From: Bryoerythrophyllum caledonicum
Lineage: Eukaryota > Streptophyta > Bryopsida > Pottiales > Pottiaceae
Length of the DNA: 64,000 bases
Assembly (NCBI GenBank): GCA_963971425.1
Contig: OZ020516.1
Coordinates: 21,769,332-21,833,331 of the forward strand
Reading direction: 5' to 3'
Made by a program: the position numbers and the translations under genes. The notes beneath the pieces were generated by a model, which searched no databases, was not told the DNA's origin, and worked only from the letters and a program-made list of their open reading frames with translations. Positions 7,423 to 31,131 of this stretch are shown here, in pieces. Each line of letters opens with the position of its first letter. Position 1 is the stretch's first letter.

Positions 7423-7509
7423 ATGGAGGACGATCTCCGTCATGTCGTGCGAGACAGGTTCTCGGGACGGGCTGGGGGCATCTCCCTGCCCGATTGGCGG
7501 CTCCGATTC
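7423..7509 (+). CDS. Gypsy gag, 5' fragment separated by the MULE
   Basis: The ATG at 7423 opens a frame (MEDDLRHVVR...) that ends in Leu-Arg-Phe at the target-site duplication. The same Leu-Arg-Phe codons reappear at 24196-24204 on the far side of the MULE, and gag continues from there in the same frame. MULE plus duplication is 16,695 bp, a multiple of three. The codon before this frame's start region is a TAG at 7387. A better gag-like N-terminus starts at 7253 in another frame, so a small indel between about 7385 and 7423 may have altered the true start. Confidence 0.7.
7500..7509. repeat. MULE target-site duplication, left copy
   Basis: GCTCCGATTC here is repeated exactly at 24195-24204, directly abutting the two inverted ends of the MULE. 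A 9-10-bp duplication is the hallmark of Mutator-like elements. Confidence 0.9.
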
Positions 7510-7563
7510 GAGCGAAGCTATTTTGTGAGCAGAAAGCGGTGAGCGGTGAGCGGTGAGCAGAAA
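7510..7563 (+). repeat. MULE left terminal inverted repeat
   Basis: Contains TGTGAGCAG, then three tandem GCGGTGA units and GCAGAAAA. The mirrored right TIR has the same words in slightly different number. Such arrays are plausible transposase binding sites, which is inference. Confidence 0.85.
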
Positions 7564-8302
7564 AGTTAGGGTTTTTGGCAGGATTTTTCTTAAAATACAT
7601 GGATATTAGTTTCAAGAATATGCTGATGTACATTAAAATTAGAAGTTTGACTATTTTGGGTTCATAATTTGGTTAGCATTGTGGAAAATGAATGAACCTA
7701 TAACCGTGAAAAAAGAGATTGGTTAAAACTTTGGCCTCATGTTGTAAAAGAATATATGAGCCTATAACCGTGGAAATGAATATATTTGTAATCAGTTACG
7801 CACATAAGGAATGAAAGAAATTTTATATGCCGCCCGAATGTACTTAAAATCATGCATGTTTTAAAGACTATCTTTTTTAACATCGTACCATCAAATTAAT
7901 AATTGTTCCAATATAAAGTTGAAGTTTAGGCCATGTTGTTCCCACTCTCAAAACATAAATATGCAATGCGGGGAAGATTGCATATATGATGAACTTAACT
8001 TTTTGTTTACAACCTAATTCTTCATTACCTCGATAGTATTAAAAGTGCAGACTAGAATTTGGGAACATATAGAATGAAATCAATGGTAGATACAGAATAA
8101 CTATTTATCTAATTCGGTTTAGGGTAAAATCATACATCATTTTTGGTTTTTCATAAGAAGGATGATACTTTGTAAGAGAATATTGGTGATGATAATAATA
8201 CAGTAGGGGAGACGTATGTACGACAAGTATTACACGGTGGCCCTTTCCGTCTCACCGCCATTTTAGTTAGAAAAGGAATAAGAAGTACAATAGAACTATT
8301 TG

Positions 8303-11300
8303 TCACACTGTTTTTACAATGTGACAGTGTGGTAGCAGGTTTTCTAACACGCGTTTGATCTCGTTGTAGCTGAAACTAGGTGCGTGGATAAACTGATCTA
8401 CTTCAGGAAGCAGATTACAAAGCCGGGTAAAAACATAATACATATGTTTGCAATTTACCCATTGACCACGCTTTCCTAATGACTTTGCTGCCATATCCTT
8501 AAAGAAAGGACAATCACAACTTGAAAATTGACCGACAGTGATAAGATACTGGGATGATTTGGATCCTTGACGAGACTCAAATGATACAATTGAACCTAGT
8601 GCTGGAGAAGGAAGCAGGGTGGCTTTCAGAATTTTACCACTTATTGAAAGCGCTGATGCGTAGCTGTTGGAATGCTTTGTTGTTGGTGCCTTGGAGTTGC
8701 GTCGAATATTCTTCCCAAATCTGCGCTTTGGATATTCGTCTGGGAAAATTGGTGCCGGGAAGTCATCAAAATTGATGACACCATTGAAATCAGAGAACAA
8801 CTCGTGCGGTGCAAAGGCCGGTCGTTCAGCCAAGCGAAATCCAGCATATTCGAGAGCAAACACTTCTTCTTGTGTAAGATTAGTACCAAGCTTTACGGGC
8901 CAAATCTCTGGCACAGGCGGTTTAGCAACAACCCACTTGCGCCTAGTGCCCTTCACACAACGCTCAATATCATCATTGCAAAAGAAAAACTGCATTTGCT
9001 CTACCTTGTTTTTCTTGTATGACGTCATCATGCATGTGTAAGTAGGAGCAGCAGTAGCTTTGTTGTACTGAATTATTTTCGCCACGCATTTTCTTTTTGT
9101 AATAGCATGTTGTGCAAAACATGCTTTCGCTGAGGTCTTCGTAAGTCGCGCTATATGCCACTCCTTCTCATTACAAGATGTCTCAAGGACTGTCTTTGTA
9201 TGATATGGAATTGGGACGGTTGTTGTCGGCTCTTCATGTGGACTACTCTGCACTTCAGGTGGATTCAGTTGTACAGTAGGGGTAGGCACCTCTTCTGAAG
9301 TAAGATCGACAATGGTGGCATGGGCACCGTAGCGTGTTCTCTTCATGGGTCGAGAGACACTAATTTTGTCAGGGCGATGTGAGTCAAACTCTGATCCTAT
9401 GGGAATATCTGCCTTCCGCTTCACAGAGAAGAAAACCTCTTCGCCTTCCAAGTGTGGCTCTCTAGTGCAAAATTCCGAAGCGCCTCTCATCTCTTCTAAC
9501 GCCGCATGCAACTTCTTCGGATCTCCGGAGCTTTTTGCATTACGTTGGGCAAGTCGAAGACGGAGATCTTCCTTACTAGGTCCCGTGCCTGCACGCTCGC
9601 CTTTGGAGAACTGATAGTATGCTAGAACTTGCGTAAATGCTCGGACATAATCATCCACCGTTGCTACGTAGAGATCATTTCCTCGTTTTCCGGATTGTTG
9701 AAGCCACTTGTTGTGCACCGTCTCAGCGAGATTGCAGGAAGGCATTTCCACAAGTTCCTCCTCTGTTAAATCCTGACAAATGGACTAAAATGTTAGCGAG
9801 AAAATCACCGTACCGATAACAACTCAATTTTTTTAAAAAAACAAATGTGCAAAAAAGACATCACTTACAAGCTCAAGAAATCCACCCCATTGGCGGTAAC
9901 GAAAGTGCCAAAATGCTAGCCACAGGTCGAGGCGAAGAACACCTTCTTCGGTTGTAGCGCCTGATGACAACCACCATGACCGGATGGCAAGGTACTTCCT
10001 CTCTGCATCTTCCAACGAATCAGCATTCTTGTACTGTTTACATAGAGAGCGGTGCTGCTCTTGTAGGTCGGGTCGAATATCGGCTTTTGTATGCTTCTCC
10101 AGAGATTGCGTCCAGTGAAATAGACATGTGCGTTCACGATTTTCCATTGGGATCTTTGCATCACCGGAGCCGTAGATGATCCGCACTGCATTCCAATTAG
10201 CTTGGGCACTGTCCGCCATAAATCCTTGAAACTGAGGTTTCAAAATGCCATGTCGTTCTGCCACGACATTCAAGTTCTTCCAAAATACAAGCTGGGCCTC
10301 AACATCCTCAGATTGCATGTCACAAACAGCTATGGTCATGACACGACAATATGATGAGTCGTACACATGACAAGCCATCGTGGTCCAACCCTTCACACGC
10401 TTGACATGATCAAACATCATCCATGATTTGCACAAATCTCCATCAGATTGCATTCGTCTAACAAGGTCAACACCACTCCCCGGGCCAACTTCAGACATCT
10501 TGAAAACAAATACCTTATCTGATTGAGAAACTTGTCCAGGGAACATGTTATTTTGCAGGTACGCCCATTTGCTGGATCCTCTGAGCTTCGTAATACTGTC
10601 CATGACTCCATAGCGCCGGAGGTACCGAAATGATGTGACCTGGTTGCGCAGATTTGGAGATGTCAAGTTCTTGCAAGTCTCGAGGACGGGCAACAACTCC
10701 TCAGATGATAGACTTTTCTCAGGTGCACCTTCAGGATTAAGCAGAATAGACGCTACGAAGTCTTTGCCGGCCTCTAAAATAATAGCTGAATTTGTGGCAG
10801 TGGGTGTTCTTTCCACCTGGTCACTCAGAAGGGTCGTAAGACGCTCCACAGACTCCCTGTCTACACCCTTCTTGACTGGATGCTTGTGATGACCAATATG
10901 GACACATGCACGAGACATCGGAGGGGGACTTAAAATATAGTATATCTTGGCTGAACAAACGTTCAAACAGGAAGGAGGAGTCTGACATATTTTGCAGACG
11001 ACTGTAGAATTCTTGGGAGGATTTGAGTCAATTCCAAATCGTAAATACGATGACCCATCCCACTCGGTCTCATTCGCGGGAGTTGGCCTATGAATTCTAT
11101 CAAGGTACGCGCACTGGTTATTGACACACTGCAGGTGCCCAAGACAAGATGACATTCTAAATGACAGACCCATGTCATTCTGAATGTGGGTTGTGACAGT
11201 ACGAGTCCATGCATGACCGTCATGACGTTTGTCCATGCCTTGTAATAGCTTGGCATGTGACTGCGAAGACAACATTGAAGCTGGAGGCAAAACAAAAATG

Positions 11301-11957
11301 ACATCCCCATCAAAGCTCGGAGGCAAGCAATCCACGATAGAAATGGGGACCTTTGAAAAATCAACCCTCGACAATATGGACTTTGACCCCTTTCTGGCAC
11401 CTAGGTTCCTTATACAATCTACTATGGAAGATGGAGGGGATCTAGATGGTAGATGTGGAGGTTTCACATGAAGGGGTCGATTGTCAAGGGAGGTATCACG
11501 TACTGGAGAATCTACATTGACAAGAGATGGAGTAGAATCTGGTTTTTCTAGGTAAACGAGAACAGGGGTGTCTGTATCTGAGTCATCACTCAAAATGTGA
11601 ATTGTTTCAGAACCCGGCTCAACTTTGATTGTCCGAGGACCACTATCCTGTTGGTTGCTTGTAATAGAGACACGAGATGCCGTACACTTTAAAAGTTCCA
11701 CACTTGAGCAGCCAGGATTTTCCTTCGTTAGTAGTGACGGCTTCCTGACCTATGGTGTGAGTAAGAACTCCGGACTCTAAATCACGTACTTCTTCATCAA
11801 CATAAATTGAAGCCTCCAGTAAATGGAATCTAGAAGAAAGTCGACTCGCACTAACAGAGCAATGACCATCGAAAGACACACGGAACGTAATCGGGATTTC
11901 TTGACCATCACTATGAATCATAACTGTGCCTAGACTACCTACATCAGCAGACGACAT
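8303..11957 (-). CDS. MULE transposase with SWIM zinc finger
   Basis: Minus-strand gene. The main exon runs from about 11749 to 9869 (donor GAGCTT|GTAAGT), followed by a last exon from 9772 to the stop at 8303; the junction keeps phase 0. It shows the MULE transposase core: MADSAQANWNAV near 10200-10220 (catalytic Asp), CLFHW near 10110-10125 (the C-x2-H motif), and a C-terminal SWIM finger with CDCPFF near 8505 and CKH near 8445. An acidic Ser/Thr-rich N-terminal stretch precedes the core. A first coding block (ATG at 11957) reads into a different frame. It joins the main exon either through an unusually short 40-nt GTACGT...ATAG intron or through a frameshift. The product should bind the TIRs and catalyse excision and insertion of this element. 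Spliced length is about 1,180 residues. Confidence 0.88.
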
Positions 11958-12646
11958 CACGAAAAGTTTTAGAAGTTCAAGTATGGAATGAGAGAGTTAA
12001 ACCAAGCGACCTAATTAGATTTATACTTCAAAATAATCAATTATTATATTTTGTCAAATAATAGTTGAAAAGCATGATAAAGTTTATGACAAAATTTTTG
12101 GCAAGTCTAGATCCGGTTTATGCGTCGCGCTAGATTAAACACATAATGGAGACTAAAAATGTTCAAAATGATGGCGTTCTTGCTATAAGCAACATCTCCG
12201 ATCTACTTGACCACAAAATAGATAAATTTCCAGTTGGAAAGTGAAATGAGTGAGGTATTTTTAGTGTAAATCAACGTGTAGTAGTCGAACTTTGGGATGT
12301 ACATTTATACACTTAAGTTATTAGTAAGCATGTAAGATTAGCTAAGCGCGCTTCCAAAAATCTCAAAAAAATGTACAAAATAGCGGTAGTGCAAGTAAAT
12401 ATAGTCTCACCAGGTCATAAAGGTTGTGCTAATCAATAATTTCTAATTATTAATACTGATAAATGACAGCGGGTGACAGCTAAATAGCTATGATAAGCTC
12501 TGACAAAAAATTTCACTATTGAATATAGCAATAATGAAGTGTATTGTGGACAGTAGACTTCTGTTGATTTTCATGAGCAACATCTTCAATTCACGAATTG
12601 ATGAATCAGATAAGTTGGGTGAGATGGGAAATCTGGCATATCTCAG
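11958..12646. promoter_or_regulatory. Divergent intergenic region of the MULE genes
   Basis: The transposase gene runs left from 11957 and the accessory gene runs right from 12647, so these 0.7 kb of AT-rich DNA presumably hold both promoters. No TATA box or motif was convincing enough to place. The gene pairing is seen; the promoter function is inference. Confidence 0.5.
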
Positions 12647-15600
12647 ATGACTGGAAAGTGTAGCTACCAATCTCTTGTTCCATCGTGTGAGAAGAAGAGG
12701 AGGCGTAGAAAGCGAGGTATTTTGTTCTCAAGTCGTAAGGAGTTGCAGAGATCTAGGATGGGAAAGCGAAAGGCATTTTGTAGTCAGGTGGACATTTCCG
12801 AAACCGCAAAGGTGTTGTCCTTTAACTCCACCGAGCGTGATAGTGATTGCGAACTTCAAAACATTGAAGAGAATGAAGGAGAGTCATTGTCTCAGGTATT
12901 GGTAATAGCGTTGTTGAAGATATTCGACCAGTAGGGTCGGTTACATGCTAGCCCCAAAGTTGTCTTTGAATTTCTTCTCAAATGTTATTCCATGCTATGT
13001 ACGTGTGATATCAAAGTGTTTTAAGCCTGTCTATTGAACTTCTTTCGCATGGGTTTGTCAGGCAAAAGTTGCGGGAGGAAGCGAAGCACAATGCCACGAT
13101 ATATCGGGTAGTATATCATCTCCACAAATGAGGCCTTCGAGAGAAGAGGTTAGCTTTCACTATTCATACTCAAGTCAGATGTATTTTCACTTCACATTCA
13201 TAACTTATATAGCACGGCCCTAATCTCAGTACACCAATTTCCAAAAACACGTAAATGATAAAGTATTGATCATAGATACTCATCTGCATCAAATACATGG
13301 GGCACAAGTTTAGGTTGACCTTTCACAGTGAAGCAAGTGTGTGTTTGTTTTTGGAACTTGAAAAGTCCTTACTCTATCAAGGTCCCAAATGGCATCTTCT
13401 CAAAGATAATGAATTGAGTCGTATTTGTTGTACAAATATAGTCTCTTGTCTTATGTGAAAAATAGCATACCAATCCAAGTAAAATATTTTCACAAATTGT
13501 CACTCATTGTCGGCCAAGGTACCAAAAAACTTCTCCTTTTCCACATAAAACCTAGAAAACTTTATATTTTCCACTTTATAATTTTTATGATACAGACAAC
13601 AATATGTGGTGTAAACCTTCTTATTGACCATTCGGATTACCAATCTTAAATATAATAAGTTCACAAAAAATTAAAGTGTGAATTGGCAAATTTTGAACCT
13701 CCCTTCCATGCACAGTTGTTTTGAATATGCTACACCTGTCTTCTACCTCCAAAAATTGGTGTATAAGGAACTAACATCATGCTTAACAAGATGGTAATGG
13801 ACTTAGACTTTGTGTAGTGCAAAATTTTGACTCTAAGTGAAGTCAAAGTCTGCTGATCCAGTTAACGCAGCAAACATAATGAATCGTGTGCTTGACTTCA
13901 ATCACTAAAATATTTCAATCCGTGCGGTCACAGTTTATGATTTTTTTTGAGTATGTTACTGAGTTAGTCTTAATTGAGATCCTACGGTCAAAACTACCTT
14001 AGGGGCTAAGTTATGTTGGACGGCCATCTCAACATGTTAGGCTGTTCGTATTATTCGTGTGAACGATTGAGGATGGATGATTTTTCTCCACGAAGATAGT
14101 TCGGTTTAGGGTAAACGTCTGTCCACGCCCAGGAATGCTTTTCTACGACGGCGGCTTCCTGACCTCTTCTCTTCGTCTCTTGCTTTCACAGGCCGAAATG
14201 AGATTGTAGTGAAGGTCTCTTGGTGAAGGTCTCTGTTCATGTTCTTACGCATTCTGTAGGTGTGGCAGGTATCGGGAGGCACGAGCAAGGAAATGGCTGC
14301 ACCGGCAGTACCGTCACCAAGCGTTGAGGTATGATAACTGACCTTAATGTGGACTTGCTTCGGGTTAGGGTTTGGAGTATGTAGAAAAAGTGCAGAAATT
14401 TGTGACGTCGTTGGTTTGTGCTTGGATTCAATTCCTGAAGCGCTCTCTCTCGACGTATTACAAACTGTTAGGAATCCCTCTCCAACTTTCTTGGTTACCT
14501 CTCCCGAAGTTTTATCTACCCAAAGATTCTTGCCCGGCATGACCTGAAGAAGGTCGAAAGGAGACCTCGTGCACGAGGCCTCCTATGGGACTGGCTCGGT
14601 TAGTGTCTATTCCGACTTCCACACCGGTTCGAGACTATTCCGACTTACTACCTGGTTCTACGGCCTGGTATTCCTGTTCCAGACTATTTCCGGTTACTGT
14701 TCGTGTACCTATTCCAGACTTATCCCGGTTATTTTTCAAGACTATTCCCGACTTCCTTGCTGAAGTATCGGTGTGCAGATTTCAACAGATGGTGCTAGTT
14801 CGGGTTCGAGTATCGCAACTTGGAAGTTCGAGTATCGAGTTCGAGTATCACAACTTGCAAGTTTGGGTTCGGGTTCCAGTATCACAACTTACAAGTTCGA
14901 GTATCGGCGATTCTGCCTGAACATTATCAAACATTATTGCGATTAGTGCAAGTTTAGGTTCGCTGATACAAACATTATCTTGATTCTGATATGTGCAAGT
15001 TCAGAATCAAGATTCTGAAGTTTTGGTTCGTTGATACGTGCGATATGTGCAATTTATCGACCAACCACGATATCTTGATTCTGAAGTTTAGGTTCGGCGG
15101 TATGTGCAAGTTATCGCGATAAGTTTGGATTCTGAAGTACCGGCGATAAATCCAAGTTATTGCTGATACAAACAATATCGCGATTCTGAAGTACCGGCGA
15201 TAAGTCCAAGTTATTGCTGATTCAAACAATATCGCGATTCTGAAGTACCGGCGATAAGTCCAAGTTATTGCTGATACAAACAATATCGTGGTTGGTTCAT
15301 GATTACAGATTCTGGTGATAGTGGTTGGTGCATGAGTGGTGATATCGGTTGACTCATCGCTATCGGTTGAATGGTGATATCAGTTGACTCATGTGGACAG
15401 GAAAGTGGTGATTTCGGTTAAGTGGTGATATCAGTTGACTTATGTGGACAGAAGAGTGGTGATATCGGTTGAGTGGTGATTCCGATACATGGTGATAGCG
15501 GTGGGTGCATGAGTACCGATTATGGTGATAGTGGTTGGTGCATGAGTGGTGCTATCGGTTGACTCATGAGTTAACGGTTGGCTCATGTGCTACTCGGTTG

Positions 15601-18600
15601 AGTGCTGATACCGATACATGGTGATAATGGTTGGTGCATGAGTACCGATTCTGGTGATAGTGATTGGCGCAGTAGTGGTGCTGTCGGGATAGTGCATGAT
15701 AGTCGTTGGTGCATGATAGCGGCCTGGGCTGGTGACATGTAAGTGTGCTCCAGTGCTGATGAGCAGTATGGCTTTTACCTGGCTTGTCAACGCTTCTCGT
15801 ACTGCCATTTAGCAACTGGACAATCATTCGAGGTGCTAGCACACATTGACGGAGTCTTGGGGCGACACTGCAACCGCGCCTGGCAGGTTCCACGATTCCT
15901 TTAAGCATTTGGTTTTTTGCTTGAATTCTTCGCTGTCGAGTCCCGATGGCAACTCCAGACTCCCGAACTCCATCACCTGTCCCGAAATACTTCTTGTCCA
16001 CCTGTCCCGACATGTCCTGAACGAGGTCGCGAGGATACCTCGTTCACGAGGCCTCATCAATGTTGGTGCGTGTTGTTGCAGGAGTCCAGATGATCATGCA
16101 AGAGCTACAGTTCTGATCCCCTACAGTATTTCCAGGTCACGACTCCTTCCTCCCGAGATCAAACTCATGTCCCGAATTCCTTCCTGTCCAACTGTCCCGA
16201 CATCACCTGAAGAAGACCGGGAGTAGACCTCGTGGACGAGGCCTCATCCATGTTGGTGCATGATGGTGCATGAAACCTGATGCTGGAGTTTCCGGTCCCG
16301 ATATTCCTTCATGTCCCGATATTCCTTCTAGGCCTCTCATCTCTTCCTGTCCCGATATCCTTCCCGTCCACCTATCCCGACATGACAGCGTCAAGGTCGG
16401 AAGGAGACCTCGTTCACGAGGCCTCCTTCAACAGGGTGCCGATCCTTGTAAACCACAGCTACACTGTCCCGATTGCTGCTACAGTGTCCCAATAACTAAC
16501 CCGATTACTATGGATGGTCTCGTGGTGTCGCTGGAGTGGAATGGCACGATTGAAGTTGACCGATTCCCGCATGTTGGAGTGGACATGCTGGAATGGAGTG
16601 GACCGATTGCTGGCTCCCGATTAGTGGCTCGGGGAAGCAGTTAATCGGGTTTGTGACTCAGGACTCCCGACTACTTTCTGTTCTCCCAAATTCCTTCCTC
16701 TCCTCTTGTCCTAAAAATCTTTCTCTCCTCCTATCCCAACAGGACTTGGAGAAGGTCGGAAGGAGACCTCGTGCACGAGGCCTCCTTCGGCAGATCCTGA
16801 TCACTGTGAACGTGCACGAGGTCAACAGTGTCCTGATTACTCTAGCCTTCATAGTTCTGGAGTTGACTCGCATGAATCACCGGACCATGTGCTACCGTGG
16901 ACCTGTGATACTGGCTCGAATGTACTGGACCTGTGCTACAGTGGACTTGTGTTGGCAGGCGCGATTGTAGTGGACCTGTGTTACTGGCTCGGGGACGCAT
17001 TTTTCCGGGTTCACGAGGTTGTTGTTAAGTCGCTGGATTTGACTCGAGGCGAGCACCGTAAATGGTTTAGGGATCCATCATAGGAATTATTTATCAGCTT
17101 GGAATATTGAGCTAGACAGATCGTGCCAATTTTTCTGCTTGCCTTATATCCCGACAGGACTTGGAGAATGACGGAAGGAGACCTCGTGCACGAGGCCTCC
17201 TTCGACAGTGTTCTGATCACTGTGAACGTGCACGAGGACTACAGTTTCCCGATTACTCTGGTCTTCATAGTTCTGGAGTTGACTGGTGCGAATGTAGTGA
17301 CTCTGTGCTACAGTGGACCTGTGATACTGGGTCGAATGTAGTGGACCTGTGCTACAATGGACTTGTGTTGGCAGGGGCGAATGTAGTGGACTTGTGTTAC
17401 TGGCTCGGGGACGCAGTTTTTCGGGTTCACGAGGTTATTGTTTGGTCGCTGGATTTGACTCGAGGCGAGCACCGTAAATAATTTAGGGATCCACTATAGA
17501 TATTATTTTTCAGCAGGAATATTGAGCCAGGCAGATCGTGGCAATTTTTCTGCTTGCCTTATATCCCGACAGGACTTGGAGAATGACGGAAGGAGACCTC
17601 GTGCACGAGGCCTCCTTCGACAGTGTTCTGATCACTGTGAACGTGCACGAGGACTACAGTTTCCCGATTACTCTGGTCTTCATAGTTCTGGAGTTGACTG
17701 GTGCGAATGTAGTGACTCTGTGCTACAGTGGACCTGTGATACTGGGTCGAATGTAGTAGACCTGTGCTACAATGGACTTGTGTTGGCAGGGGCGAATGTA
17801 GTGGACTTGTGTTACTGGCTCGGGGACGCAGTTTTTCGGGTTCACGAGGTTATTGTTTGGTCGCTGGATTTGACTTGAGGCGAGCACCGTAAATAATTTA
17901 GGGATCCACTATAGATATTATTTTTCAGCAGGAATATTGAGCCAGGCAGATCGTGGCAATTTTTCTGCTTGCCTTATATCCTGAACGTTCTTATATTTTT
18001 TGAGAGGAGGTCAATATTGCTGTTCCACTGAAGCCTCGTGGGCGAGGGCTTCTGTATTGTATTTAGTGTTTCTGGTTCAGAAGCATGGAGCACGACTTAA
18101 TTGTGGCAAGACAAACATGGTTTATTTGCTGATTCTGGTCTTTGGCACCAGGAAGCAACCCAAAGTCCAAAAATTTAATGCCTGAAAGTTCAAGAGTTGC
18201 CAAACACTAAAGCCTCGTACACTATTCTCTCTGATATGTTTCTAAAATATTGTGGGCACGGCAGGCTGATCTTGGCGAAGCGGGCGAGGATCTTCGGGAC
18301 AACATGTTGGAAAGTTCACCATTGGTGAATACTACACCAAGTAATGGGGTGAGTACGAAGCTCTGAAATTTAATAATGATTGGTATTTTCATGTTCAAAT
18401 CTAAAAAATATATAGTTCATGTAGATGGTGATACTATGTAAAGTTCATTTATTTTGACTCTGAATATTTGTGCATGTAGATGGTGGAATTTGGAATGGAT
18501 AAGTTAACTTTGAGGAATATATTTCCTAAATACTGTATTGTTTGTTTGATACTAGGGAGATGAAAATGACACTCAAGATGTCGATGATCATAATCACAGC

Positions 18601-21600
18601 CCCGTTATTCAGGTTAGTCACTTCTTCAATTTCTTCCTAGCAATACTTTGGATTTATCATACCTTGGTATAATTTCTGCTAAGTTACTCATATTGCCTTT
18701 TGTAGAACGATCCCACTAGCGATTCTGAAGATTCGTCACCAAAGTGTCCGGATGGATTGGTCAGTTCATTCGAGGGCGAAAGAGCAAGACGACTTCATCA
18801 GAAGTCTAATTTCGTGACTGTCCTGGAGAGCATGCGCGTTACGAAGGGTCCTTTTTATGTGCCACTTTGCAGGATGATTGCTCTTCCACGAGTTCGGCCG
18901 ATTCAAGAGATTGACGTGTGTGCGTTGCAGAAGAGATTTGAAGGCGGCTATATTGATGGAGATCGTGCATTCTACATATCCATCTATGATGACCAAGAAA
19001 TGACACATGATGTTTCCCCACATATAAAGTCAACCTGGGATTCACATTGGATTGCAGCAAATGATAAGTTTGAGGAGATGTTGAGCTCTACTCCAGAGTT
19101 AGCTGCATTCAGTGGCAAAATGTTTTATGTTTGGGACGGAAATCATAGGTACAATGCGTGGTGGCGTTTCATTCAAGAACAGCATGGCAATGACCCAAAT
19201 TGGCACTATAATGTCCAGTGTATCGTATTGAATCCGACAGGGAGGATATCTGTGTTACTGAATTGCATGCACGATGTCAACTGGTACATTCTCTAACACT
19301 TATCCATTCTCTTATGAAATCATTCAGTTCTTTTTTGCTACTTAGAGCTAACTAGAACTTATTTTCTGCGTGTGCCCATTCAGGTCAACACAAAACGATT
19401 TTGTGAAGACCAGCCTTCCTGCAAAACTCCAACGTATACGATTTTATGGTGGGCTGAAGTTAGAAGATTTCAAGGATCTCTTGACAGCTGAGGAATTCAA
19501 GACGTGCATGAAAGTTCGGCAATCCCGTGCAGCATGGTTCCCGTTAACAGTTGATGTTTTCATATAGTTCTTATATCGGGTAGGGTTTAGCACTCGATAA
19601 ATATTTGTAATTTTTGACTTTGTAACCACGTTTGAGTTTGTGAAGTATACCAATATTTTGAAACATGATTGCAGCAAGATATTTCTCGGGCTTCTGATGA
19701 AGCGGCCATTGAATACGAGAAGAGGACATCAGTGGAGGAGAGAAGTGCTGAAGGAGTATGGAAGGTCATGAGCGACGCCGCAGCCAATACCGTGAAGGCA
19801 ATTAAGGGCAAGGACTTTCAGAAGTACCTTGCAGTTGCCAATCCCAAGAATGGCGAGGACTTCTTCCATGAGGTAAACAATTATGAACATAAATTGTTTG
19901 AAATGTAAAGCATAATTAGAATTGATTAGAATCTTGTTTGTTGATACATAGTGATTTTATTTTAACTTCATTACTTTTGGCAGATCAATTTTCATTTCAG
20001 TCACTTTAAAAAGACTGAAATGACCATAGAAAAGTTACAAAAAGTGGCAACGGCAGCGGTGGAGCCTCATTTCAAAGGCAGGTGGCTGCATTTTTGGAAC
20101 TCTCCAGCAATGGTGAGATCGGCTTTCCGCTTTCCAGCTACGCAAATCAAAGATGGCGCTCTTGATTCCTTTCTCAATCGTGCAACTTTTTGGGCACAGG
20201 TATTGAAATTACTTATCAGTTTCTAATGACTTATGTGACAGTTTTTGCATCATGATCATTACGTATGAGTACTGACTTTTCAAATTCATGTTATCAGCTG
20301 GAGGACAAATTTATTGCCCATTTTGACGAAATTTGTGCAACGGGCACAATTTCAGTGAACTGGGACGCTTCCCCAAGTATTGAAAAGCCCTCCGAATATG
20401 TAGAAAAATGGCGCATGGTTTTATGGGAGAAGGCGTATATGGTCATTGTGCATCCAGGGTTAAAACCACCATTAATCAGAAGAATACAAAGTTTGATGTG
20501 TTGCCTGGAGCTGATCTCGCCATCAAACGAGTTCTATACAGGTATATCTCTAGTGGCTGTCCTAGTTCATTGTTGTTTAAATATCTTCTTATTCTAAATC
20601 GCTTATTAAAGTCAGATTTTGTCTCTTCAGGTACATTGTGAGAGAGCTGATACCTAAAAACGCTCTTCAGCAATCTGTGTGCCCTTCATTTCTGTCAACT
20701 TGGATTCAGCCTTCATCAGATTTGTGCATCTTTACCGAGCTTCAGAAGAAGAGGTATTCTACTCGAGTATTACACGGTGGTGGATGGTACCTGGAATGCT
20801 CTATCAACTTCGTTCCAGATGCGGAGAAAGACCTCTTTCAAGGTCTTGTAGATATTTCTGAACTTCTCACGTCAACAACATTGGAGGAGCCAGAGGTAGA
20901 AATTGTGGAGCAGTCGTCATCCCCACCAGTTCTAGTCCAAGAGGAGACGTCTGGAAAGAAGAAGCGTCTATCGAAGGCTGAGAAGGAAAAACTTATCAAA
21001 GACGCGGAGGTTGCAAAGAAGGCTGAGATAGATGCAGCTGTTGCAGCCGCCCTTGCTGAGAGAGGTTCATTGGATCTTTCTTTCATGCCAGATGCATCAG
21101 ATTTGCCTAGGAACGAGGTCGAGGCATGGAACTCTCCTCCATTAATGGCGTCATCTCACGCCGCAGGATCAAGCCATGTTGAAGTTATAAGGATGGAAGT
21201 GCAACAGCGCAAGCAACGTCAATTTTTAGTTTCTGAGTCATCCGTTCCGCCAGTGCCAGCTGTCTCATCAGAATGTTTCATCAAAAACATATCAATGTTT
21301 TCTATCATGCAGTCTCTTTCAGAGATTGGAGGTCCACCGCAACTTTGGGAGGAACTACATCAATTTATTTCGAAGGTTAGATTATGTTATCCTTCTTGAT
21401 TTTTATTTTTTCATAATCAGATTTACACAGTTGTTGTACAATCATTGGTTTTTTTTGCTTCTAGGTTGGTGCAGGTAGATCGCGATCAGTTTCAAACGAA
21501 AATTGCAAACACACCGGATTGGATCTTATAGTGGCTGACATTCCTGAGAGTTTGCCAGTTCCTGGGATTTCTCAATCCATTGATGTCATCCCTGCATGGA

Positions 21601-22743
21601 ATTTGAGGCCGGAGAGTTATATTGATACGATTTTTGAGTTCGCTGACAACTATCTTCATGACAACGCTGCGTTGCTCCTACTTCATCCAAATGATAGGGA
21701 GTTACAACTTGAGATTGATGATTGTGCTTCTACATACGACTTCAAACTCCTCATCGACTGGTGGGCTTTGAACGAGCTTCCTCTAGCTCTGCCTCGAGAT
21801 CCTTCTGCAACAGTAAGCTCGTTTCCAATTGTCTTCATAGTTCTGAGCTGTAGTCTTCAAGATCCCCTTCGTCATTCTAATCCATAATATTCATTATTGT
21901 TATTTCTCAGGGAACGCGTTTCTGTGTTCAGCTGTTTGTTCGTGACGCTCCCATCGTCTCGACATTTTCAGTTCGCTCTCCACTTCGAGAGCTCGACATC
22001 TTGTTCAATCCTGTGAATATTGCTTCACAGCTCAAGAATAAAGACTCACCTTGGCGGGGGGCTCGAGAGAAAGCGGTTGATCTCATGAAGACAGTTCTTG
22101 AATCCCTCACAAAAGTTGGGGATATTGTTTTAGATTGGAATGCCTCTACGGGTAAGCATTTGTTTAATATTATTGTATACTTAACTTATTCATATACCCC
22201 ACCTATATTTTATATTTTCTAACGCTTTGTATTTTTTAGGACCAACTATTCGGGCGTGCCAATCATTGGGCCGTCACATATTGGCTTTTGAAGAAGACTC
22301 GGAGATTTTCCAAGCCTTGCTCGCACCGCTAATTCCAAAGGCAAACGCAAAATTGACTGTGGAGAACAGGAGGAATGTACGTCGTACTCAAGGAGAACCA
22401 CCACAGAAGAAGCAAAAAAGTAGTCGTATTCCTTCTTGTAAGTAAGTTCAAAACATTCTTTTGTTTTCATCGTTGTTAACAAAATATGTGTACGGTTTTC
22501 ATTTGAATTCTAAACCTATTGTTTCTCTGTTTCTTTTGCAGAGCTATGCCGCTAGTTTTATCTCCAGATTCTTCTTTTTCTCTCCCTATATGGGCTCGAA
22601 GAACTGCAGAGATTCTATCAACTATGAATTCTCCTCTCCCAACACGTCAACGGCGGAGGTATGACAAAGATGTTATCCGTTATATAGATGCAGAGGCAGA
22701 GGTTGGTAATGGAAGCGAGGGTAGTTCAGATGATACGGAGTAG
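12647..22743 (+). CDS. MULE accessory protein: ParB-like plus DNA methyltransferase-like
   Basis: Fifteen exons join with consistent phases: 12647-12895, 13062-13148, 14269-14328, 18265-18348, 18556-18612, 18706-19283, 19384-19549, 19675-19872, 19984-20199, 20298-20541, 20631-21375, 21465-21812, 21911-22151, 22240-22441, 22542-22743, giving about 1,225 residues. The N-terminus has a basic KKRRRRKR patch, a likely nuclear signal. Residues about 225-360 resemble a ParB/Srx-type domain, with VWDGNHR as the DGNHR signature. A Lys/Glu/Ala-rich coiled-coil-like stretch lies near 20960-21060. Residues about 910-1120 follow the permuted beta-class order of DNA N6-A/N4-C methyltransferases: LDLIVADIPES (motif IV position), PWRGAREKAVDLM (motif X-like), then GDIVLDWNASTG (motif I) and RHILAFEED. 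Catalytic DPPY is replaced by DIPE and FxGxG by NASTG, so activity is doubtful. Exon 10 is one base out of phase with exon 11, probably a 1-nt loss near 20462. The first three exons are less certain than the rest. Confidence 0.72.
15128..15289. repeat. 54-bp tandem repeat, three copies
   Basis: Units begin GATTCTGAAGTACCGGCGAT at 15128, 15182 and 15236, an exact 54-bp period with one or two differences per copy. Each contains CAATATCG and AAGTTATTGCTGAT. Confidence 0.9.
15300..15720. repeat. Degenerate short tandem array
   Basis: Irregular repeats of words such as GTGGTGATATCGGTTGACTC and GTGATAGTGGTTGGTGCATG, about 20-50 bp apart. The apparent protein frames (for example 15564-16013 minus) only translate this array. 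Confidence 0.7.
17101..17999. repeat. 415-bp tandem duplication
   Basis: 17101-17515 and 17516-17930 are almost identical, and a third copy starts at 17931 but breaks off after about 60 bp. A more diverged copy of the same unit covers about 16680-17085. Each unit contains one CCTCGTGCACGAGG palindrome. Confidence 0.9.
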
Positions 22744-24139
22744 TTGTTTGGTGTATTAATTTTCATTTCTGATTCAGTAAGATCGTATTTGCTAGTCCAA
22801 CTAGGGTCTACCGAAATTGGATATTGATCTTGTATTGGTTTTAATTATTCCTAAACAATTATATATTGAAACATGCCCTTTAGTTTGTTTCCATCTTATT
22901 TGGTATTCGGACACTGAAAATTACTAATCTGAATCAAAACTTATTTGAATTTGTAACTGCGTACGAATTTGTCAAATAGATATGTATTCTACTTTTCAAG
23001 CTAAGTATGCAACTCAAGGCTGCACATAATTTGCAATGGCAGATGTTAAAAATTGAAGTTTTGGTTGTTATTCTACTTTGTCATTGAGTAATGAATTAGT
23101 ATTTAGTACCACATAGAATGCAAGAGTGAATGATAGAATGTACAATGTATGGCGCACGGAGTATTGCTAGGACCCTAAACCGTACATATAAAAATACATT
23201 CTAAGAAAATAAATGAGTTAATTTCTGATGAGCAAATAGATACATGACTTCTTGAATAGAAAATATCAAAATTAAAAATGGGCAGATAAACCAAGAAAAG
23301 GTATTTTTTGAAGAGTTGTATAATAATTGTACAATACAGATATAATCTTGTCTACCCTAAATCCTAAACCCTAAATTCTAAGATTCTAAATCAATGTTCA
23401 AATAAAATACTATAGTCTCTAGATCATGCTAACACATCAAAATGTGTATCTATATCAAAAAAGAAATTCAGGATGAGAAATCCGTCTGATGGATGAACAC
23501 ATAAATGAAAATGGACCGTCAAATAAATGAACGCTACGAAACAGATCCACAATTTCTTTGCATGTGCCCTTTGGAGGAATCCATTGAATGTGCCCTTTGA
23601 AGGAATCCTTTGAATGTACCATATAGAGGAATCCTTTGAATGTGTCCTTTCATTAGGATTTGGATTTGATCTAATCTAAAATTTAAAGTTTTTATCTACA
23701 TACATTTGTTTAACTTAAGATTGCCCATGGTCCGTCGGTTAGGACGGGGTTCCACTTTATTTTTGAAGTGGATTTAAACTAGGGTAACATTTACATGCAC
23801 TCCAAAAACATATGTACTTTTCCATTTAGATTCAATTTGAGCTTATAGGTTTTAAAATACAAAACATACAAACGTAAATTTAACACACCAAACTCCGCTC
23901 TCCCCGTCGGGACGACGGGCGCCAACCCTAGTTTCCCTCATAATAAGAATGCGAGTCCTTTCATCCACGGCCATAGGGCATTTCATGAAACTATACTGAT
24001 TCACTCTTTTGTTTTAAACCAAAGTTTCAATTATAGTGTATAATAATCCACGGCCATAGATCCTCTCCCAAGCTAAAAACTATTTCCCTAAACCGTACCC
24101 CTAAACCTAAACTCACTTTTTTCTGCTCAAACCCATTTT
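22744..24139. other. MULE right subterminal region
   Basis: AT-rich non-coding DNA downstream of the accessory gene. At about 23565-23655 a unit containing GGAATCC-TTGAATGT-CC is repeated about four times at ~28-bp spacing. A short telomere-like CCTAAACCCTAAA lies near 23360. No gene is seen. Confidence 0.6.
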
Positions 24140-24194
24140 TTTTCTGCTCACTGCTCACCGCTCACCACTCACTGCTCACAAAATAGCATTCCCC
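24140..24194 (-). repeat. MULE right terminal inverted repeat
   Basis: Reverse-complemented it starts GGGGAATGCTATTTTGTGAG and continues with GTGAGC/GGTGAGC units, mirroring 7510-7563. It is followed directly by the second GCTCCGATTC duplication at 24195-24204. Confidence 0.85.
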
Positions 24195-24204
24195 GCTCCG
24201 ATTC

Positions 24205-27200
24205 CAAACCTGGATGAAGGAGAAGCGCCAGCGGATGCCGTCGTTTAACGACTGGTATGCGTTCGAGCTTTTGCCCCAGCATTTGGAGCTAGAAGCGCTC
24301 CAATCGTACGGGAAGTGGACTACGCAGCACGAGGCACAGTTACGTCCGGTTGAGGAGTACTGGCGCCAGCGTGTGGAGTTGGTGACTGCGCTCAAGGAGA
24401 GTGTAGTTGCCCAACTACCGACTTCCACCGAGGAGCCTAAGGTGGAAGAGAGTCTCTTCGGGGAGGACTCCAGGGGCAAGGGTGTTGCCATTGTGGGCGA
24501 ACGGGTTGGCATGGGGGCCATGTCCCGTTTGGCCGTTGCCACACGTGCGGCATTGATGGCGGTTGGCGATCCGCCTGCCTTTGATCCTCTAGCGCAGTTC
24601 ATGGCGCATTTAGAGGTGGAGTACGGGGGCCTCAGGCGTGATCAGATGCAGCGCATCCAGGATTTCCGCCGGGAGAAAGAGGATACCCCACGCACCATGT
24701 ATACCCGGTTGGCACGGTTGTCAGCTGAGGCTGGTGATGTGTTCACGGAGCGCCAACTGGTGAAGATCTTCATCTCCAAGTTGGACAAGAGGATGGTGGA
24801 ATTGATTAGTCCACATCTTCTTTTTCGGTATCATGGCAACGCCACTTTGGCTCAGGCGTTCGCCGAGGTGGAAGCGCTCGACAGAGCACTGGGCGTGAGC
24901 GAGGCCACTGATTTAGTGACGTCCCTATTAGAGGCTCCCAAGCCCAAGAAACTTGCCACCGCCACCGGTAGCTTGGCGGAGGCACAACCTGAAAAGGTTG
25001 TGCATTGTTGGGCTTGTGGGGAGGCTGGTCACACCAAGGGGGACCCCAACTGTTCCAAGAAGAAGGGGGCAGGGGCGGTGAAGGCCAAGCCCAAGACTGA
25101 GGCAGCCAAGCCTGCAGAGAAGGCTGGGGGTAAGGGAAACAAGCTTGTGACATGTTCTCACTGTGGCAAGACTGGCCACACTGATGAGAACTGCTTTTCT
25201 CTTCATCCAGAGAAGCGCCCAGGGTCTTCAGCTGTTGGATCGGATGCGGTGAAGACACTGCAGGCTGAACTGGCGGAGCTGAAAAAGCAAATGAGTGCGA
25301 TGGCTTCTTTGGGGCAAGTGGCAGAGACACGGCCTCCATCGAGGGGTCAGGGCTCATCTTCAGCCCTAGACCGCTACTTGTATGGCGCTTCAGGGGAGGT
25401 GGTGGCAGCAGTGGCCACTCGTGCTCAGACTATTGTACAAGCAGTGGCACCTTCATCCTCTATGCCGGTTAGTAGTGGCCGTCCACGCCACACGGGTTTG
25501 CCGGACCACATTGGTCAGTCCCGGCTACCACTTTCTTTTGGCATCGCGGATGCGGCTATTTCTACTGCCTCTCCCACTCCGCCCCCGGTCCCACCGCTTT
25601 CTTCCACTCATGGGGATGCCGCACACACCTTGGCGTATAAGGTGTTGCAGTTGCCCGTGTTTGCCGGTGTGGATTTTCTGACACCGGATTTTCGACCATC
25701 TGGTGTATTCCACTTGGCAGGTAGTATGTTGGAGGGCAAGGTGCCCATGCCTTCATTGGAGGTGTCGCAGGCGGTGACGGCTCCACCCACCGAGGAGGAT
25801 TTGGTGGCATTGCGGGCCAAGTTGGCGGCGGAGGCTATTTCCGTGTTTGAGGCCAATGCCACTTCCACACCTACGGAGCAGTCCTCCGGGGATCAGTCAT
25901 TGATCTCTGGAGTGGCTTATTTATTTGACATTGCAGCCCGGTCGGCACGAGAGCGCCGTAGTGTGCGTCCAGGGGTTGTACGTTTGGTGAATGACGACGG
26001 AGTCATGGTGGTTAGTCGTATGGACGGCAACCCCACTCGAGCTACCCCCTTGCGTGTTATGCTGGACTCTGGAGCTCAGCCAGTGATGATTGGCAAGCAG
26101 CTAGCCCTGGATTTGGGTCTAGGTGCTTCGGACCTCGAGCCTTGCCCATTTACGATTGTTACATCGGTTGGAGGCACGGAGAAGGCCATGGGGTACACCC
26201 GACATCCGTTACAGTTGATGTTCGGTGTCGGATCTGGTCCATTGTTCTCCCACGTATCCCTTCAGTGTGCTGTGACTGGTGCCACCAACTATGACATTCT
26301 GGTGGGTCAGCAAGCACTTTATCCTCTCGGTTTTGGAGTGGATAATTGGACGGAGGAGGCCTGGATTAGGCCTGGGTGGTCTGCCGGTGATGGCAGAAAG
26401 GAGCTCATTCCGGTTGTCTTCGCAGCTAGCGCGGTGACTTCCACGGCGGACGCTATGTTTGGATGCACTGCGTTGGCTTCTGATTTGCCATGTGGTTCTA
26501 CGCTTTTGGAGGAGACATATGCTTTTATGTCGGGGGTAGCGGAATCACAGGAGTACATACCACTACAGATCCCTGCACGTCATTGCAAGGATCCAGTTCT
26601 GCCTTGGGGAACTCAGTTGGAGCTTACCCGTCGGAGTCGGGAGATTGTGGATGCTTTGGATGCTCCACATCTCTTAGTGGACTCTTCTACTCCGTTGTTG
26701 GCTCGTACAATTCAGTGGCGACCACCAGATGAGGGTATTACCCTCGTGGAGCTATTTGCCGGTATCGGTACGGGGCTCGCGGCTGTGTTAGAAGCTGGGC
26801 TCAAGGTACGCCGGTACATTCACGTCGATAGTGGCTTTGCAGCCAATCGAGTTGCTCACCACCACATTCAGCGTCTTCTGGCGTTGTACCCGGAGCAGTT
26901 ACCACCTTCTGCCATTCGGGGATGTTTTGGCAAGCTGCCACGTGATGTGACGTTGACCAGTGAGGATGATCTTCGCCGGTTAGGTCACGTGGACTTGGTG
27001 ATTGCCGGATGGCCATGCCAAGGCCATTCACGGGCGGGAAGTGGACGTGGCTTGGATGATCCACGGTCGGGTCTCTTTGCGGATTTGCTTAGGCTCGTCC
27101 AGTGGTGGATTACCCACCAATCGACACCACCGGGGTACATTTTTGAGAATGTACCCCCATTGGGGGATACACGGACGAAAGTGCGTGAGGATGGGGCGTA

Positions 27201-27987
27201 CATCCATCACCTTCTTGGTCCCCCTACGTTTGTTGATGCCGCAGCGTTGGGATCTTACGCCCATCGGCCACGTTGGATTTGGACCAACATGGCATCATCC
27301 ACGACGCTCACTTCTGCACTTGCTCAAGTGCAACGGCCCGTGCGCCGTGAGGTCGATGACATTTTAGACGACCACCGTGTTCCCACGGAGGTTACGAAGG
27401 ATGATGAGCCACCATTGGCGGTGGTCAACCGCGTTGGTTTCACTCGAGGGGCATTTCCCACTTTGATGTGCTATCCAGGCTCTTTTGCCTTCAGGTCACG
27501 CGGTCCGGGCATGGTTTGGGATTCTTCTTCCCAAACTTTCGAGGAGCCTTCTGCCGATGAGAGGGAGCGGGCGATGGGCTTTTTGACAGGCACCACCGCC
27601 GCACCGGATATCTCTGAGGGCCAACGCCGTTATTTGTTAGGTCAAGCCATTGACCTCAACACCCTTGTTTGGATATGTGGCCTCTGTTTCGCCGCTCAAC
27701 GCCGCTCGAGTGACCATCCACGCGTGCTGGGGGCAGACTCTGATGGTCAGGGGGCAGCGGTGCCACATCTCACAGAGATCGAGGAAGCGGAGTTGCTTTT
27801 TCGATTGAAGAGACATGCAGCTGAGGAGCTTCGTGCTCAGCGTGTCTTTGCAGCCTTGGCAGAGGACTTTGGCCGTGAGGATGCTCGAGATATCTTTTCC
27901 CAGTTTTATCATCACAATACGGGATTTTCTGTAGATTCTGTGAGTGAGGGGTCTGGGGGCATTAATGCCCTCTCTGCTACCAAGTAG
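24205..27987 (+). CDS. Gypsy Gag-protease-cytosine methyltransferase ORF (main part)
   Basis: Continues the gag frame from 7423-7509 and stays open to TAG at 27985-27987. Order of domains: capsid-like helical region (24214-24900); a variant zinc knuckle C-x2-C-x4-H-x6-C from 25006; a canonical C-x2-C-x4-H-x4-C knuckle from 25153; a Pro/Ser/Ala-rich linker; an aspartic protease with LDSGAQ (Asp codon 26065); then a C5-cytosine methyltransferase. In the last I see motif I VELFAGIGTG (Phe at 26755), motif IV AGWPCQGHS (catalytic Cys 27016-27018), motif VI FENVPP (Glu 27145), motif VIII AHRPRWIW, motif IX PTLMCYP-x-FEEPSADERERAMGF and motif X YLLGQAIDLN. All key catalytic residues are present. 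The enzyme would transfer methyl from SAM to cytosine C5. It sits upstream of the stop codon, so it should be made at Gag levels rather than Pol levels. Confidence 0.92.
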   Translation, partial: QTWMKEKRQRMPSFNDWYAFELLPQHLELEALQSYGKWTTQHEAQLRPVEEYWRQRVELVTALKESVVAQLPTSTEEPKVEESLFGEDSRGKGVAIVGERVGMGAMSRLAVATRAALMAVGDPPAFDPLAQFMAHLEVEYGGLRRDQMQRIQDFRREKEDTPRTMYTRLARLSAEAGDVFTERQLVKIFISKLDKRMVELISPHLLFRYHGNATLAQAFAEVEALDRALGVSEATDLVTSLLEAPKPKKLATATGSLAEAQPEKVVHCWACGEAGHTKGDPNCSKKKGAGAVKAKPKTEAAKPAEKAGGKGNKLVTCSHCGKTGHTDENCFSLHPEKRPGSSAVGSDAVKTLQAELAELKKQMSAMASLGQVAETRPPSRGQGSSSALDRYLYGASGEVVAAVATRAQTIVQAVAPSSSMPVSSGRPRHTGLPDHIGQSRLPLSFGIADAAISTASPTPPPVPPLSSTHGDAAHTLAYKVLQLPVFAGVDFLTPDFRPSGVFHLAGSMLEGKVPMPSLEVSQAVTAPPTEEDLVALRAKLAAEAISVFEANATSTPTEQSSGDQSLISGVAYLFDIAARSARERRSVRPGVVRLVNDDGVMVVSRMDGNPTRATPLRVMLDSGAQPVMIGKQLALDLGLGASDLEPCPFTIVTSVGGTEKAMGYTRHPLQLMFGVGSGPLFSHVSLQCAVTGATNYDILVGQQALYPLGFGVDNWTEEAWIRPGWSAGDGRKELIPVVFAASAVTSTADAMFGCTALASDLPCGSTLLEETYAFMSGVAESQEYIPLQIPARHCKDPVLPWGTQLELTRRSREIVDALDAPHLLVDSSTPLLARTIQWRPPDEGITLVELFAGIGTGLAAVLEAGLKVRRYIHVDSGFAANRVAHHHIQRLLALYPEQLPPSAIRGCFGKLPRDVTLTSEDDLRRLGHVDLVIAGWPCQGHSRAGSGRGLDDPRSGLFADLLRLVQWWITHQSTPPGYIFENVPPLGDTRTKVREDGAYIHHLLGPPTFVDAAALGSYAHRPRWIWTNMASSTTLTSALAQVQRPVRREVDDILDDHRVPTEVTKDDEPPLAVVNRVGFTRGAFPTLMCYPGSFAFRSRGPGMVWDSSSQTFEEPSADERERAMGFLTGTTAAPDISEGQRRYLLGQAIDLNTLVWICGLCFAAQRRSSDHPRVLGADSDGQGAAVPHLTEIEEAELLFRLKRHAAEELRAQRVFAALAEDFGREDARDIFSQFYHHNTGFSVDSVSEGSGGINALSATK

Positions 27988-27993
27988 CAATCA
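27985..27993 (+). promoter_or_regulatory. Candidate stop-codon readthrough signal (TAG CAA TCA)
   Basis: The Gag-methyltransferase frame and the pol frame are the same frame, separated by this single TAG. The six bases that follow, CAA TCA, fit the CAR-YYA consensus known from tobamovirus-type leaky UAG codons in plants. No frameshift site is needed. Readthrough itself is inferred. Confidence 0.75.
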
Positions 27994-30900: not shown

Positions 30901-31131
30901 CCCATTGATGGCTCCGTGCATCCTGAGTTGGCCGTTGTGCCACAGGGTCTTCCGTGTTTTGTGTGTGGTGAGAAGAAGGGTGCGGCTACTATGTTGCTTT
31001 GTGACCATTGCCAGCGTGGTTGGCATATGGCTTGCTTGACGCCGCCTCTCTCTACTCTACCGTCCGGGGATTGGACTTGCCCTCGTTGTCGGAGGTCTTC
31101 GAGTCACGTTTCACCCGATGAAACGGCTTGA
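27988..31131 (+). CDS. Gypsy pol: RT, RNase H, integrase, PHD finger
   Basis: Open from just after the TAG to TGA at 31129-31131, with no early ATG; a GTG at 28000 is the only near start, which supports readthrough. RT has the active site YIDD (28690-28701) and the surrounding KNAPAEFQRVMD and FLGLANYYRRF blocks typical of Ty3/gypsy. RNase H follows (HTDWSAVGLGAVL, SYEGEALAAVW, TDHQPLKWL). Integrase has the HHCC finger (HEDLGH with CEVC), the catalytic Asp in SLDFAG and in LTDQGREF, and the Glu in ADGLAERVVQ. The last ~50 residues (from 30955) form a PHD-type C4HC3 finger: CFVC, CDHC, GWH, CPRC. A chromodomain is usual at this place in plant chromoviruses, and none is seen. A PHD reader could steer integration to particular histone marks, which is inference. 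Confidence 0.93.
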   Translation, partial: QSPAVPVRGESSTVEKETTEFDDWPLDLGPHLTGAEARRVRAFIRSYRSCFAFSLHDLEGYRGKPIYIQLEDDHPIFRRPYKLSLSEKVGVQTRCQELLDASLIELSNGEYACATVMPSKKDIFGNWTEKRMCGDYRPVNRKTKSDRYPMPTLEELFDAVGHARVFSTLDLRSGYHQLPLMVDDRVKTAFWGVDLDGRDQLYHWKFLSFGLKNAPAEFQRVMDRVLTGLPFARCYIDDVIIFSSSPQEHVRHLQAVFERLRQWGLRLHHGKCKFFHDRLPYLGHMIVPGGLGVQQAKVDALQKIPAPIDVSRLRAFLGLANYYRRFVKNFSLIAKPLTILTGKDQPWTWGREQQQAFATLKLKLGSAPVLRRPDATRPFHLHTDWSAVGLGAVLTQKDDEGREYVVAFASRSNNNAESNYSSYEGEALAAVWAIAHFRPYLYGQRFTLVTDHQPLKWLMESDKLTGKLARWALLLQEYDFEVVHRAGITNLDADGLSRNPSPSEEDLTGARWHGDCDRESVPGWHAAAYLTLMSGSTSTLPDMAADEEPDKAQVVSDVWEDVPVLHKLQHGTLPPALSAMERDRVGHRIARFRWENGLLFRLWPDGTRRIVPRPDQRASLVRQVHEDLGHFGVRRTHSMLRSQYWWTGMYQHVATYVLRCEVCDRVRSSFNTLSPQLQPLPMMGLGYRWSLDFAGPLVVTPRGAKYVLVMVEHFSKWIELVALPQNSSELAAMAFLDRVLARFGAPAEVLTDQGREFLGAFEALCTKALIDYRTTSRDHPEADGLAERVVQTVKRGLRKYGLLQGGHRDWDLMIPWIAMGYRFSRQASLAAFSPYQLLYGREPILPSSVREKLAPVVDLDDPEVWIQCLRDRAEFFKRAMPMAMENLSIAQHRDTLRYARIRSGAYRPQLRRFSNGDYVYLQREAPTTLDVKAGRTILRVKDVLPSGILLLEGKDGRECREHSKNCAPCHLPIDGSVHPELAVVPQGLPCFVCGEKKGAATMLLCDHCQRGWHMACLTPPLSTLPSGDWTCPRCRRSSSHVSPDETA

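Follow-up and report, generated by a model that had tools for sequence, protein, structure and literature searches.

The element described here lies in a 64,000-nt stretch of the moss Bryoerythrophyllum caledonicum (assembly GCA_963971425.1, contig OZ020516.1, positions 21,769,332 to 21,833,331; hereafter the window, with positions counted from its first base). It carries two divergent genes, a transposase and an accessory gene whose product joins a ParB-type domain to a methyltransferase-like domain. We delimited it by aligning the window with ten other copies taken from the moss's own genome (437 Mb), all picked via the exon encoding the ParB-type domain (the ParB exon), so finding both genes in 11 of 11 aligned copies is not an independent count. 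The complete element is 16,685 bp long (7510..24194, the span common to the ten other copies) and ends in imperfect terminal inverted repeats (7510..7564, plus strand; 24140..24194, minus strand; 90% over 52 bp). It is flanked by a 10-bp target-site duplication (7500..7509 and 24195..24204), within the 8–11-bp range of Mutator-like elements (MULEs). Read by eye, this duplication is exact in nine of the 11 copies and matches at nine of ten bases in the other two. The member c1 of a second subfamily has similar ends, with terminal inverted repeats of 83% over 48 bp and an exact 10-bp target duplication; in b1, a left element end was looked for and not found. The transposase lies on the minus strand in two exons. 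The first (9869..11749, which may reach further 5') carries the first two catalytic-type aspartates, and the second (8306..9772) carries the third acidic residue and a SWIM-like CxC..CxH motif; the D...D...E pattern, these motifs and a CLFHW stretch were all read by eye. Both exons are free of stop codons in the window, as are the homologous stretches of copies cp9, cp2 and cp6. A search with residues 120–680 retrieved 66 public transposase relatives at 43–85% identity. Pfam gave no Mutator match at E ≤ 1 for the two window exons and no match at E ≤ 10 for the c1 transposase, and PF00872 was matched by one of 46 relatives (0.034). On the strength of its target duplications, terminal repeats and motifs, and despite this Pfam result, we classify the element as Mutator-like, as the initial annotation did; the annotated divergent arrangement, with the accessory gene on the plus strand of the same element, also holds. 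A Ty3 element encloses the MULE, and its presumed long terminal repeats (LTRs; 6308–6673 and 31551–31915) are 98.9% identical, which suggests a young insertion. The insertion point of the MULE lies between the 5' LTR and gag of this Ty3 element.

The accessory gene comprises 13 exons on the plus strand rather than the 15 initially annotated: 11 between 18556 and 22743, an ATG exon and a provisional exon. Exon 1 (14293..14328) supplies the ATG, which is kept together with its donor site in all 11 aligned copies. It is followed by a long intron 1 (14329..18264), the provisional exon 2 (18265..18348; alignable in five of 11 copies, with splice sites placed by eye) and exon 3 (18556..18612). Exon 4 (18706..19283) is the ParB exon, exons 5–8 (19384–19579, 19675–19872, 19984–20199 and 20298–20541) form a conserved middle region, and exon 9 (20631..21375) is more variable. 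Exons 10–12 (21465–21812, 21911–22151 and 22240–22441) encode the methyltransferase-like domain, and exon 13 (22542..22743) a weakly constrained C-terminal tail with its stop codon at 22741–22743. In the window, all 11 exons from 18556 onward have AG acceptors and all ten internal donors are GT, in agreement with the spliced gene first placed at 18706–22743; across the ten other copies, five splice borders have changed and a gap affects one more. A single frame-breaking junction had been reported. A frame break does occur, as a frameshift in exon 8, but a premature stop in exon 5 had been missed, so the window copy is broken. Seven of the ten other copies likewise contain stop codons or have damaged splice sites or reading frames, and the remaining three (cp2, cp4 and cp9) retain an uninterrupted 11-exon frame of 1,068–1,074 residues. 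Pooled ratios of nonsynonymous to synonymous divergence (Ka/Ks) rose from 0.09 in the ParB part, through 0.105 and 0.19 in the middle region and 0.28 in the methyltransferase part, to 0.77 in the tail, based on 15 non-independent pairs from six copies with stop codons skipped. The window and cp3 were left out of these estimates because of frame breaks, and cp4, cp7 and cp8 were aligned but unpaired.

Exon 4, which contains a WDGNHR motif, is predicted to adopt the ParB/sulfiredoxin (Srx) fold, as proposed from the initial reading: a model built from 112 sequences reached a predicted local distance difference test score (pLDDT) of 90.5. Folding the exon from a single sequence gave a pLDDT of only 38.5. 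A phage DNA methylase was among its viral fold matches (E = 0.017, rank 10). The P-motif arginine (GxxR type), R148, is present in 107 of 112 aligned relatives; its match to the arginine of ParB is one of sequence pattern and not of superposed structures.

Profile comparisons relate the C-terminal domain to beta-class N6/N4 methyltransferases. The spliced window protein matched PF01555 (N6_N4_Mtase) at 1e-7 with 32.6 bits (cut-off 26.7), as did five of five subfamily members at E ≤ 1. A profile of the domain matched DpnA (9e-5) and CcrMI (0.016), with N4 enzymes found only at 0.65–0.72, and a profile–profile comparison with two phage DPPY enzymes gave a probability of 92.8 over 73 columns. These matches span the X–I region. 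Canonical motif IV in the beta class is [DNS]PP[YFW]; here all six aligned sequences, which cover four subfamilies and a distant relative (L036) and hence five lineages, read D[IV]PE and lack the aromatic residue of the DPPY type. In the window it reads DIPE, and a further type-a copy, cp5, has DILE. Motif I, in the same six sequences, is D..ASTG without the first glycine (DWNASTG in the window), and both the acidic residue that follows it and a PWRG.REK stretch are invariant. Thus the permuted beta-class domain of the initial annotation stands as a relationship, but not as a set of canonical motifs. Because motif IV is D[IV]PE instead of DPPY in five lineages, the protein is probably not an ordinary methylase, and the fact that the motifs are kept yet non-canonical suggests a changed role and not decay. 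METTL14 is a precedent for a silent methyltransferase that serves as a nucleic-acid platform.

Recurrence of the gene in the genome and the low Ka/Ks of both domains indicate that it is no chance occurrence. The same genome holds at least 151 matches to the ParB exon and at least 150 to a methyltransferase exon, both domains are kept in four divergent subfamilies, and an exon profile search found 222 public relatives of the ParB exon. No homologue was found with the full-length spliced cp9 protein as query, a null that we take to be an artefact because the later matches were reading frames the size of single exons and the search filters candidates by length. In viral contigs, the ParB exon gave 30 and 13 pattern matches, none confirmed. 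A viral contig found with the methyltransferase profile (L035; 29%, one of 84 pattern matches) was rejected, as it encodes ordinary DPPY enzymes. A prokaryote collection yielded four ParB-exon pattern matches, one of them confirmed. This is L036, a 4,691-bp sequence labelled as a Synechococcales metagenome-assembled genome, which contains the whole ParB–methyltransferase architecture in intron-like pieces; it is probably a eukaryotic sequence in a bacterial bin and not cyanobacterial. For both a transposase relative (P0040) and a ParB-exon relative (P0084), the longest contig listed measures 674,632 bases, a hint that in another organism a single contig carries the two genes.

The region from exon 1 to exon 3 includes tandem repeats that contain a 26–28-bp near-palindrome around CCTCG-N4-CGAGG (type a). 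The window has eight of these, all in intron 1 (core starts 14565, 16038, 16228, 16408, 16767, 17182, 17597 and 18034), and the 11 copies together have 72, in 62 distinct contexts. All 72 occupy spacer or intron sequence, away from the ends of the element. The ten core bases were fixed by the search itself; in the flanks, the left six positions carry 0.85–1.65 bits and the right six carry 1.13–2.0 bits at five positions and 0.36 at the sixth, while most positions further out fall below 1 bit (position −33 reaches 1.88). Palindromes with a TCG-N4-CGA core are found in noncoding sequence within or before the gene in the four subfamilies examined, as ..GACTTCGTTGACGAAGCCTC.. and ..GGCTTCGTGGACGAAGCC.. 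in subfamily b, ..GGCTTCGGCGCCGAAGCC.. in subfamily c and ..GCTTCGGCACCGAAGC.. in subfamily d. Their arms differ symmetrically between subfamilies, with both arms changing together. At one locus (G000:C3:21203826-21204258), six GGCTTCG-N4-CGAAGCC palindromes stand 72 or 144 bp apart just upstream of a subfamily-b ParB exon.

With arms of at least six, we found three, three and two TCG-N4-CGA palindromes in subfamilies b, c and d, compared with means of 0.01–0.02 over 100 shuffles, and none in five coding controls or three other stretches of the window. The window itself scores 0 in this strict test because, in most type-a sites, arm position six is a fixed A/G mismatch. Across the genome, all 59 exact type-a sites lie on the gene strand, and for 57 of them a ParB exon follows no more than 6 kb downstream. 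A ParB exon likewise lies no more than 8 kb downstream of 26 of 32 exact type-c sites and of 44 of the 50 generic sites listed (50 of 90). For all three patterns, reversed-pattern controls gave no matches. The remaining six type-c and six listed generic sites have none of the 56 typed ParB exons within 8 kb downstream, and two of the sites so placed, C11:13261594 and C2:11019579, are by eye 3.5–4.2 kb from listed transposases.

Closely similar transposases are paired with accessory genes of different types. We scored 69 of 3,149 candidate transposase matches and paired them with type-a and type-c ParB exons only (71 of 151, the other subfamilies being left out). A divergent ParB exon of either type was present within 20 kb of 54 of the 69 and of neither type for the other 15; the gene thus passes the test set with the initial annotation, which would have failed had all other copies of the family lacked it. 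Among 32 transposases at least 92% identical to that of the window, 18 have type-a neighbors (91–100%), 11 have type-c neighbors (49–52%) and three have none. One of the 11 swapped cases (C9:13089022) is ambiguous, with a second transposase in between. At C4:3844128-3851289 (G000), for example, a transposase 95% identical to that of the window adjoins a ParB exon of only 52% identity, a natural exchange. In a swapped element inspected at the sequence level (L037), type-a sequence extends to approximately the exon-1 region and type-c sequence begins ~1.2 kb further on. The spacer there has two TCG-N4-CGA palindromes with arms of five, one identical to a c1 site and the other with a type-c center, and no type-a palindrome. 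Across the ten clear swapped elements, exact type-c sites occur in two, exact type-a sites in none and neither type in the rest. Palindrome type therefore follows the accessory gene and not the transposase, a pattern that speaks against a role of the palindromes as specific sites of the transposase.

We consider the chances about even that the accessory protein is a self-recognizing, probably anti-silencing, regulator. As a sequence-specific DNA-binding protein encoded by the element, it would recognize the palindromic repeats of its own first intron. The ParB-type domain may provide nucleotide-dependent dimerization or clamping, as ParB does at parS; nucleotide-gated clamp loading onto DNA has been described for ParB proteins (PMC12704722). 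The methyltransferase-like domain would be retained as a DNA- or cofactor-binding platform and not as an ordinary amino-methylase. Once bound between the divergent genes, the protein may shield the regulatory region from the silencing marks of the host, or hold it active in some other way, by analogy with VANC, a protein of Arabidopsis VANDAL transposons. A fuller scenario is more tentative and, in our judgment, less likely than not: a phage-type ParB–methyltransferase fusion would have become a catalytically silent, nucleotide-gated clamp on parS-like intron palindromes that holds off silencing, with palindromes and protein co-evolving and the recognition cassette exchanged between transposases. 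In that case, parts of a bacterial segregation system would have given rise, by convergence, to a counterpart of VANC.

Several observations weigh against this interpretation. The palindromes sit in the accessory gene's own intron, so linkage alone could explain why the two travel together, and in seven of the ten swapped elements exact sites of both types are absent, the reading of spacers having covered L037. When palindromes were counted without bias, they outnumbered the highest of 20 shuffles in only eight of 13 regions, the exceptions being c1 (1 versus a mean of 0.6) and four type-a copies. Of the three sites in c1, one has arms that are unrelated, and single TCG/CGA inverted repeats with different spacings also occur, with spacer 8 found twice in subfamily d and once in a transposase control, and spacer 0 once in subfamily a. 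ParB contacts parS through a helix-turn-helix, which in the canonical partition protein follows the N domain together with a C-terminal dimerization domain, and Pfam detected no DNA-binding domain in the middle part of either cp9 or c1 (no match at all in cp9 and only DUF6568 in c1, at 0.13). Motif IV was assigned by register with the DPPY of DpnA, and the stretch is not significant alone. Finally, CpG observed/expected values are slightly higher in the intron than in the gene in seven of nine cases (0.72–0.89 versus 0.66–0.77, the intron being GC-richer), which gives no clear trace of protection from methylation.

Alternatively, the protein could work as a DNA methyltransferase, with the ParB-like part guiding it to place N4-methylcytosine or N6-methyladenine on its own element. 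We regard this as unlikely. The above-cut-off Pfam match, its recurrence in five of five subfamily members at E ≤ 1 and the invariant acidic residue and PWRG.REK stretch all speak for such an enzyme, and the same idea has been put forward for an accessory gene of a Sola transposon in Ectocarpus (PMC12477816). The altered motifs IV and I, in five lineages, speak against it. A helper in transposition, acting by end binding, nicking or targeting, with the palindromes as incidental or enhancer sites, is in our view slightly less likely still. It would fit the proximity of the gene to most scored transposases and the report of a Bacillus cereus ParB-methylase as a nicking endonuclease (PMC5512222), but the 72 type-a palindromes avoid the element ends and the type-a transposase occurs with either accessory type. 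Slightly less probable again are host transcription-factor sites, bidirectional promoter sites or RNA hairpins unrelated to the accessory protein: the palindromes do lie between divergent genes, and a hairpin would also be preserved by symmetric changes, yet nearly all type-a and most listed generic sites are upstream of ParB exons and so hardly occur elsewhere in the genome, and the site type varies between subfamilies of one host. Finally, a gene captured as a passenger and of no use to the element might account for the broken window copy and the damage in other copies, but is very improbable given the purifying selection, the retention of both domains in four divergent subfamilies and the many public relatives.

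We know of no ParB or methyltransferase domain in VANC. Accessory genes of the ParB–methyltransferase kind are already known from transposons. The 21.5-kb Ectocarpus element Sola1-1_Ec32 carries a gene for a 1,104-residue protein with ParB and N4/N6 methyltransferase domains opposite its transposase, and the same paper cites parallels in red and green algae (Petroll 2025 and Iyer 2011, in PMC12477816). By that description, it resembles the moss system in having both domains, a gene opposite the transposase and a giant DNA transposon as host (1,104 versus 1,074 or more residues). It differs in belonging to the Sola superfamily of a brown alga rather than to the MULEs, and the available part of its description makes no mention of altered motifs, palindromes or swapping. 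Our full-text literature search found no Mutator-like transposon with a ParB–methyltransferase gene. The initial impression that no such MULE accessory gene was known therefore survives for MULEs, but not for transposons at large, in view of the published Sola case. What the moss elements add is the MULE host, the D[IV]PE and otherwise altered motifs, the co-varying palindromes and the swaps. In Arabidopsis VANDAL elements, VANC proteins are associated with short motifs in tandem repeats, located in introns and upstream regions in the same orientation, family-specific and diverging (PMC5735166, PMC10398659). The moss system likewise has a MULE accessory gene, same-orientation motif repeats in its intron and near the divergent transposase, and differences between families. 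The VANC21 motif, YAGTATTAY, is in contrast not a palindrome, and anti-silencing has been demonstrated for VANC (PMC5735166, PMC10398659), while for the gene described here it is inferred. Phages encode fusions of the ParB-CTPase fold to N6/N4 methyltransferases, which join the same two domains in mobile elements but are prokaryotic, and sulfiredoxin is the commonest eukaryotic representative of this fold (PMC12704722). The available text of that paper contains no words beginning with ‘transpos’, ‘plant’ or ‘alga’.

Other mobile elements occupy parts of the window. In the Ty3-type element (24187–31131), the first open reading frame (ORF) matches the C5 DNA methyltransferase family PF00145 (4e-11), and a PHD finger (2e-10) lies at the end of the Pol ORF; the element resembles the Dnmt3-carrying Gypsy elements of Klebsormidium. 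KnitGypsy-Dnmt3 and other retrotransposons are described as carrying C5 methyltransferases (PMC5890265). That system shares with the moss accessory gene an element-borne DNA methylation domain in a green lineage, but its domain is of the C5 class and lies inside Pol, so it bears on the neighboring Ty3 element and not on the accessory gene. Further along, on the minus strand, are a Helitron (44677–48741) with Helitron_like_N and PIF1 helicase ORFs and Copia-type gag/pol fragments (54456–58228).

To our knowledge, VANC is the known example of a protein encoded by a transposon whose relief of silencing is confined to the family it belongs to. Should the anti-silencing reading be true, the moss accessory gene would provide a second, unrelated protein design for family-specific anti-silencing, together with candidate binding sites. 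The methyltransferase part of such accessory proteins should not be presumed to be an active methylase. The natural cassette swaps would serve as built-in specificity controls, and intact copies exist, so that recognition of its own family by an element-encoded protein would become a direct question of binding. A ParB-type nucleotide switch would thereby enter eukaryotic chromatin biology.

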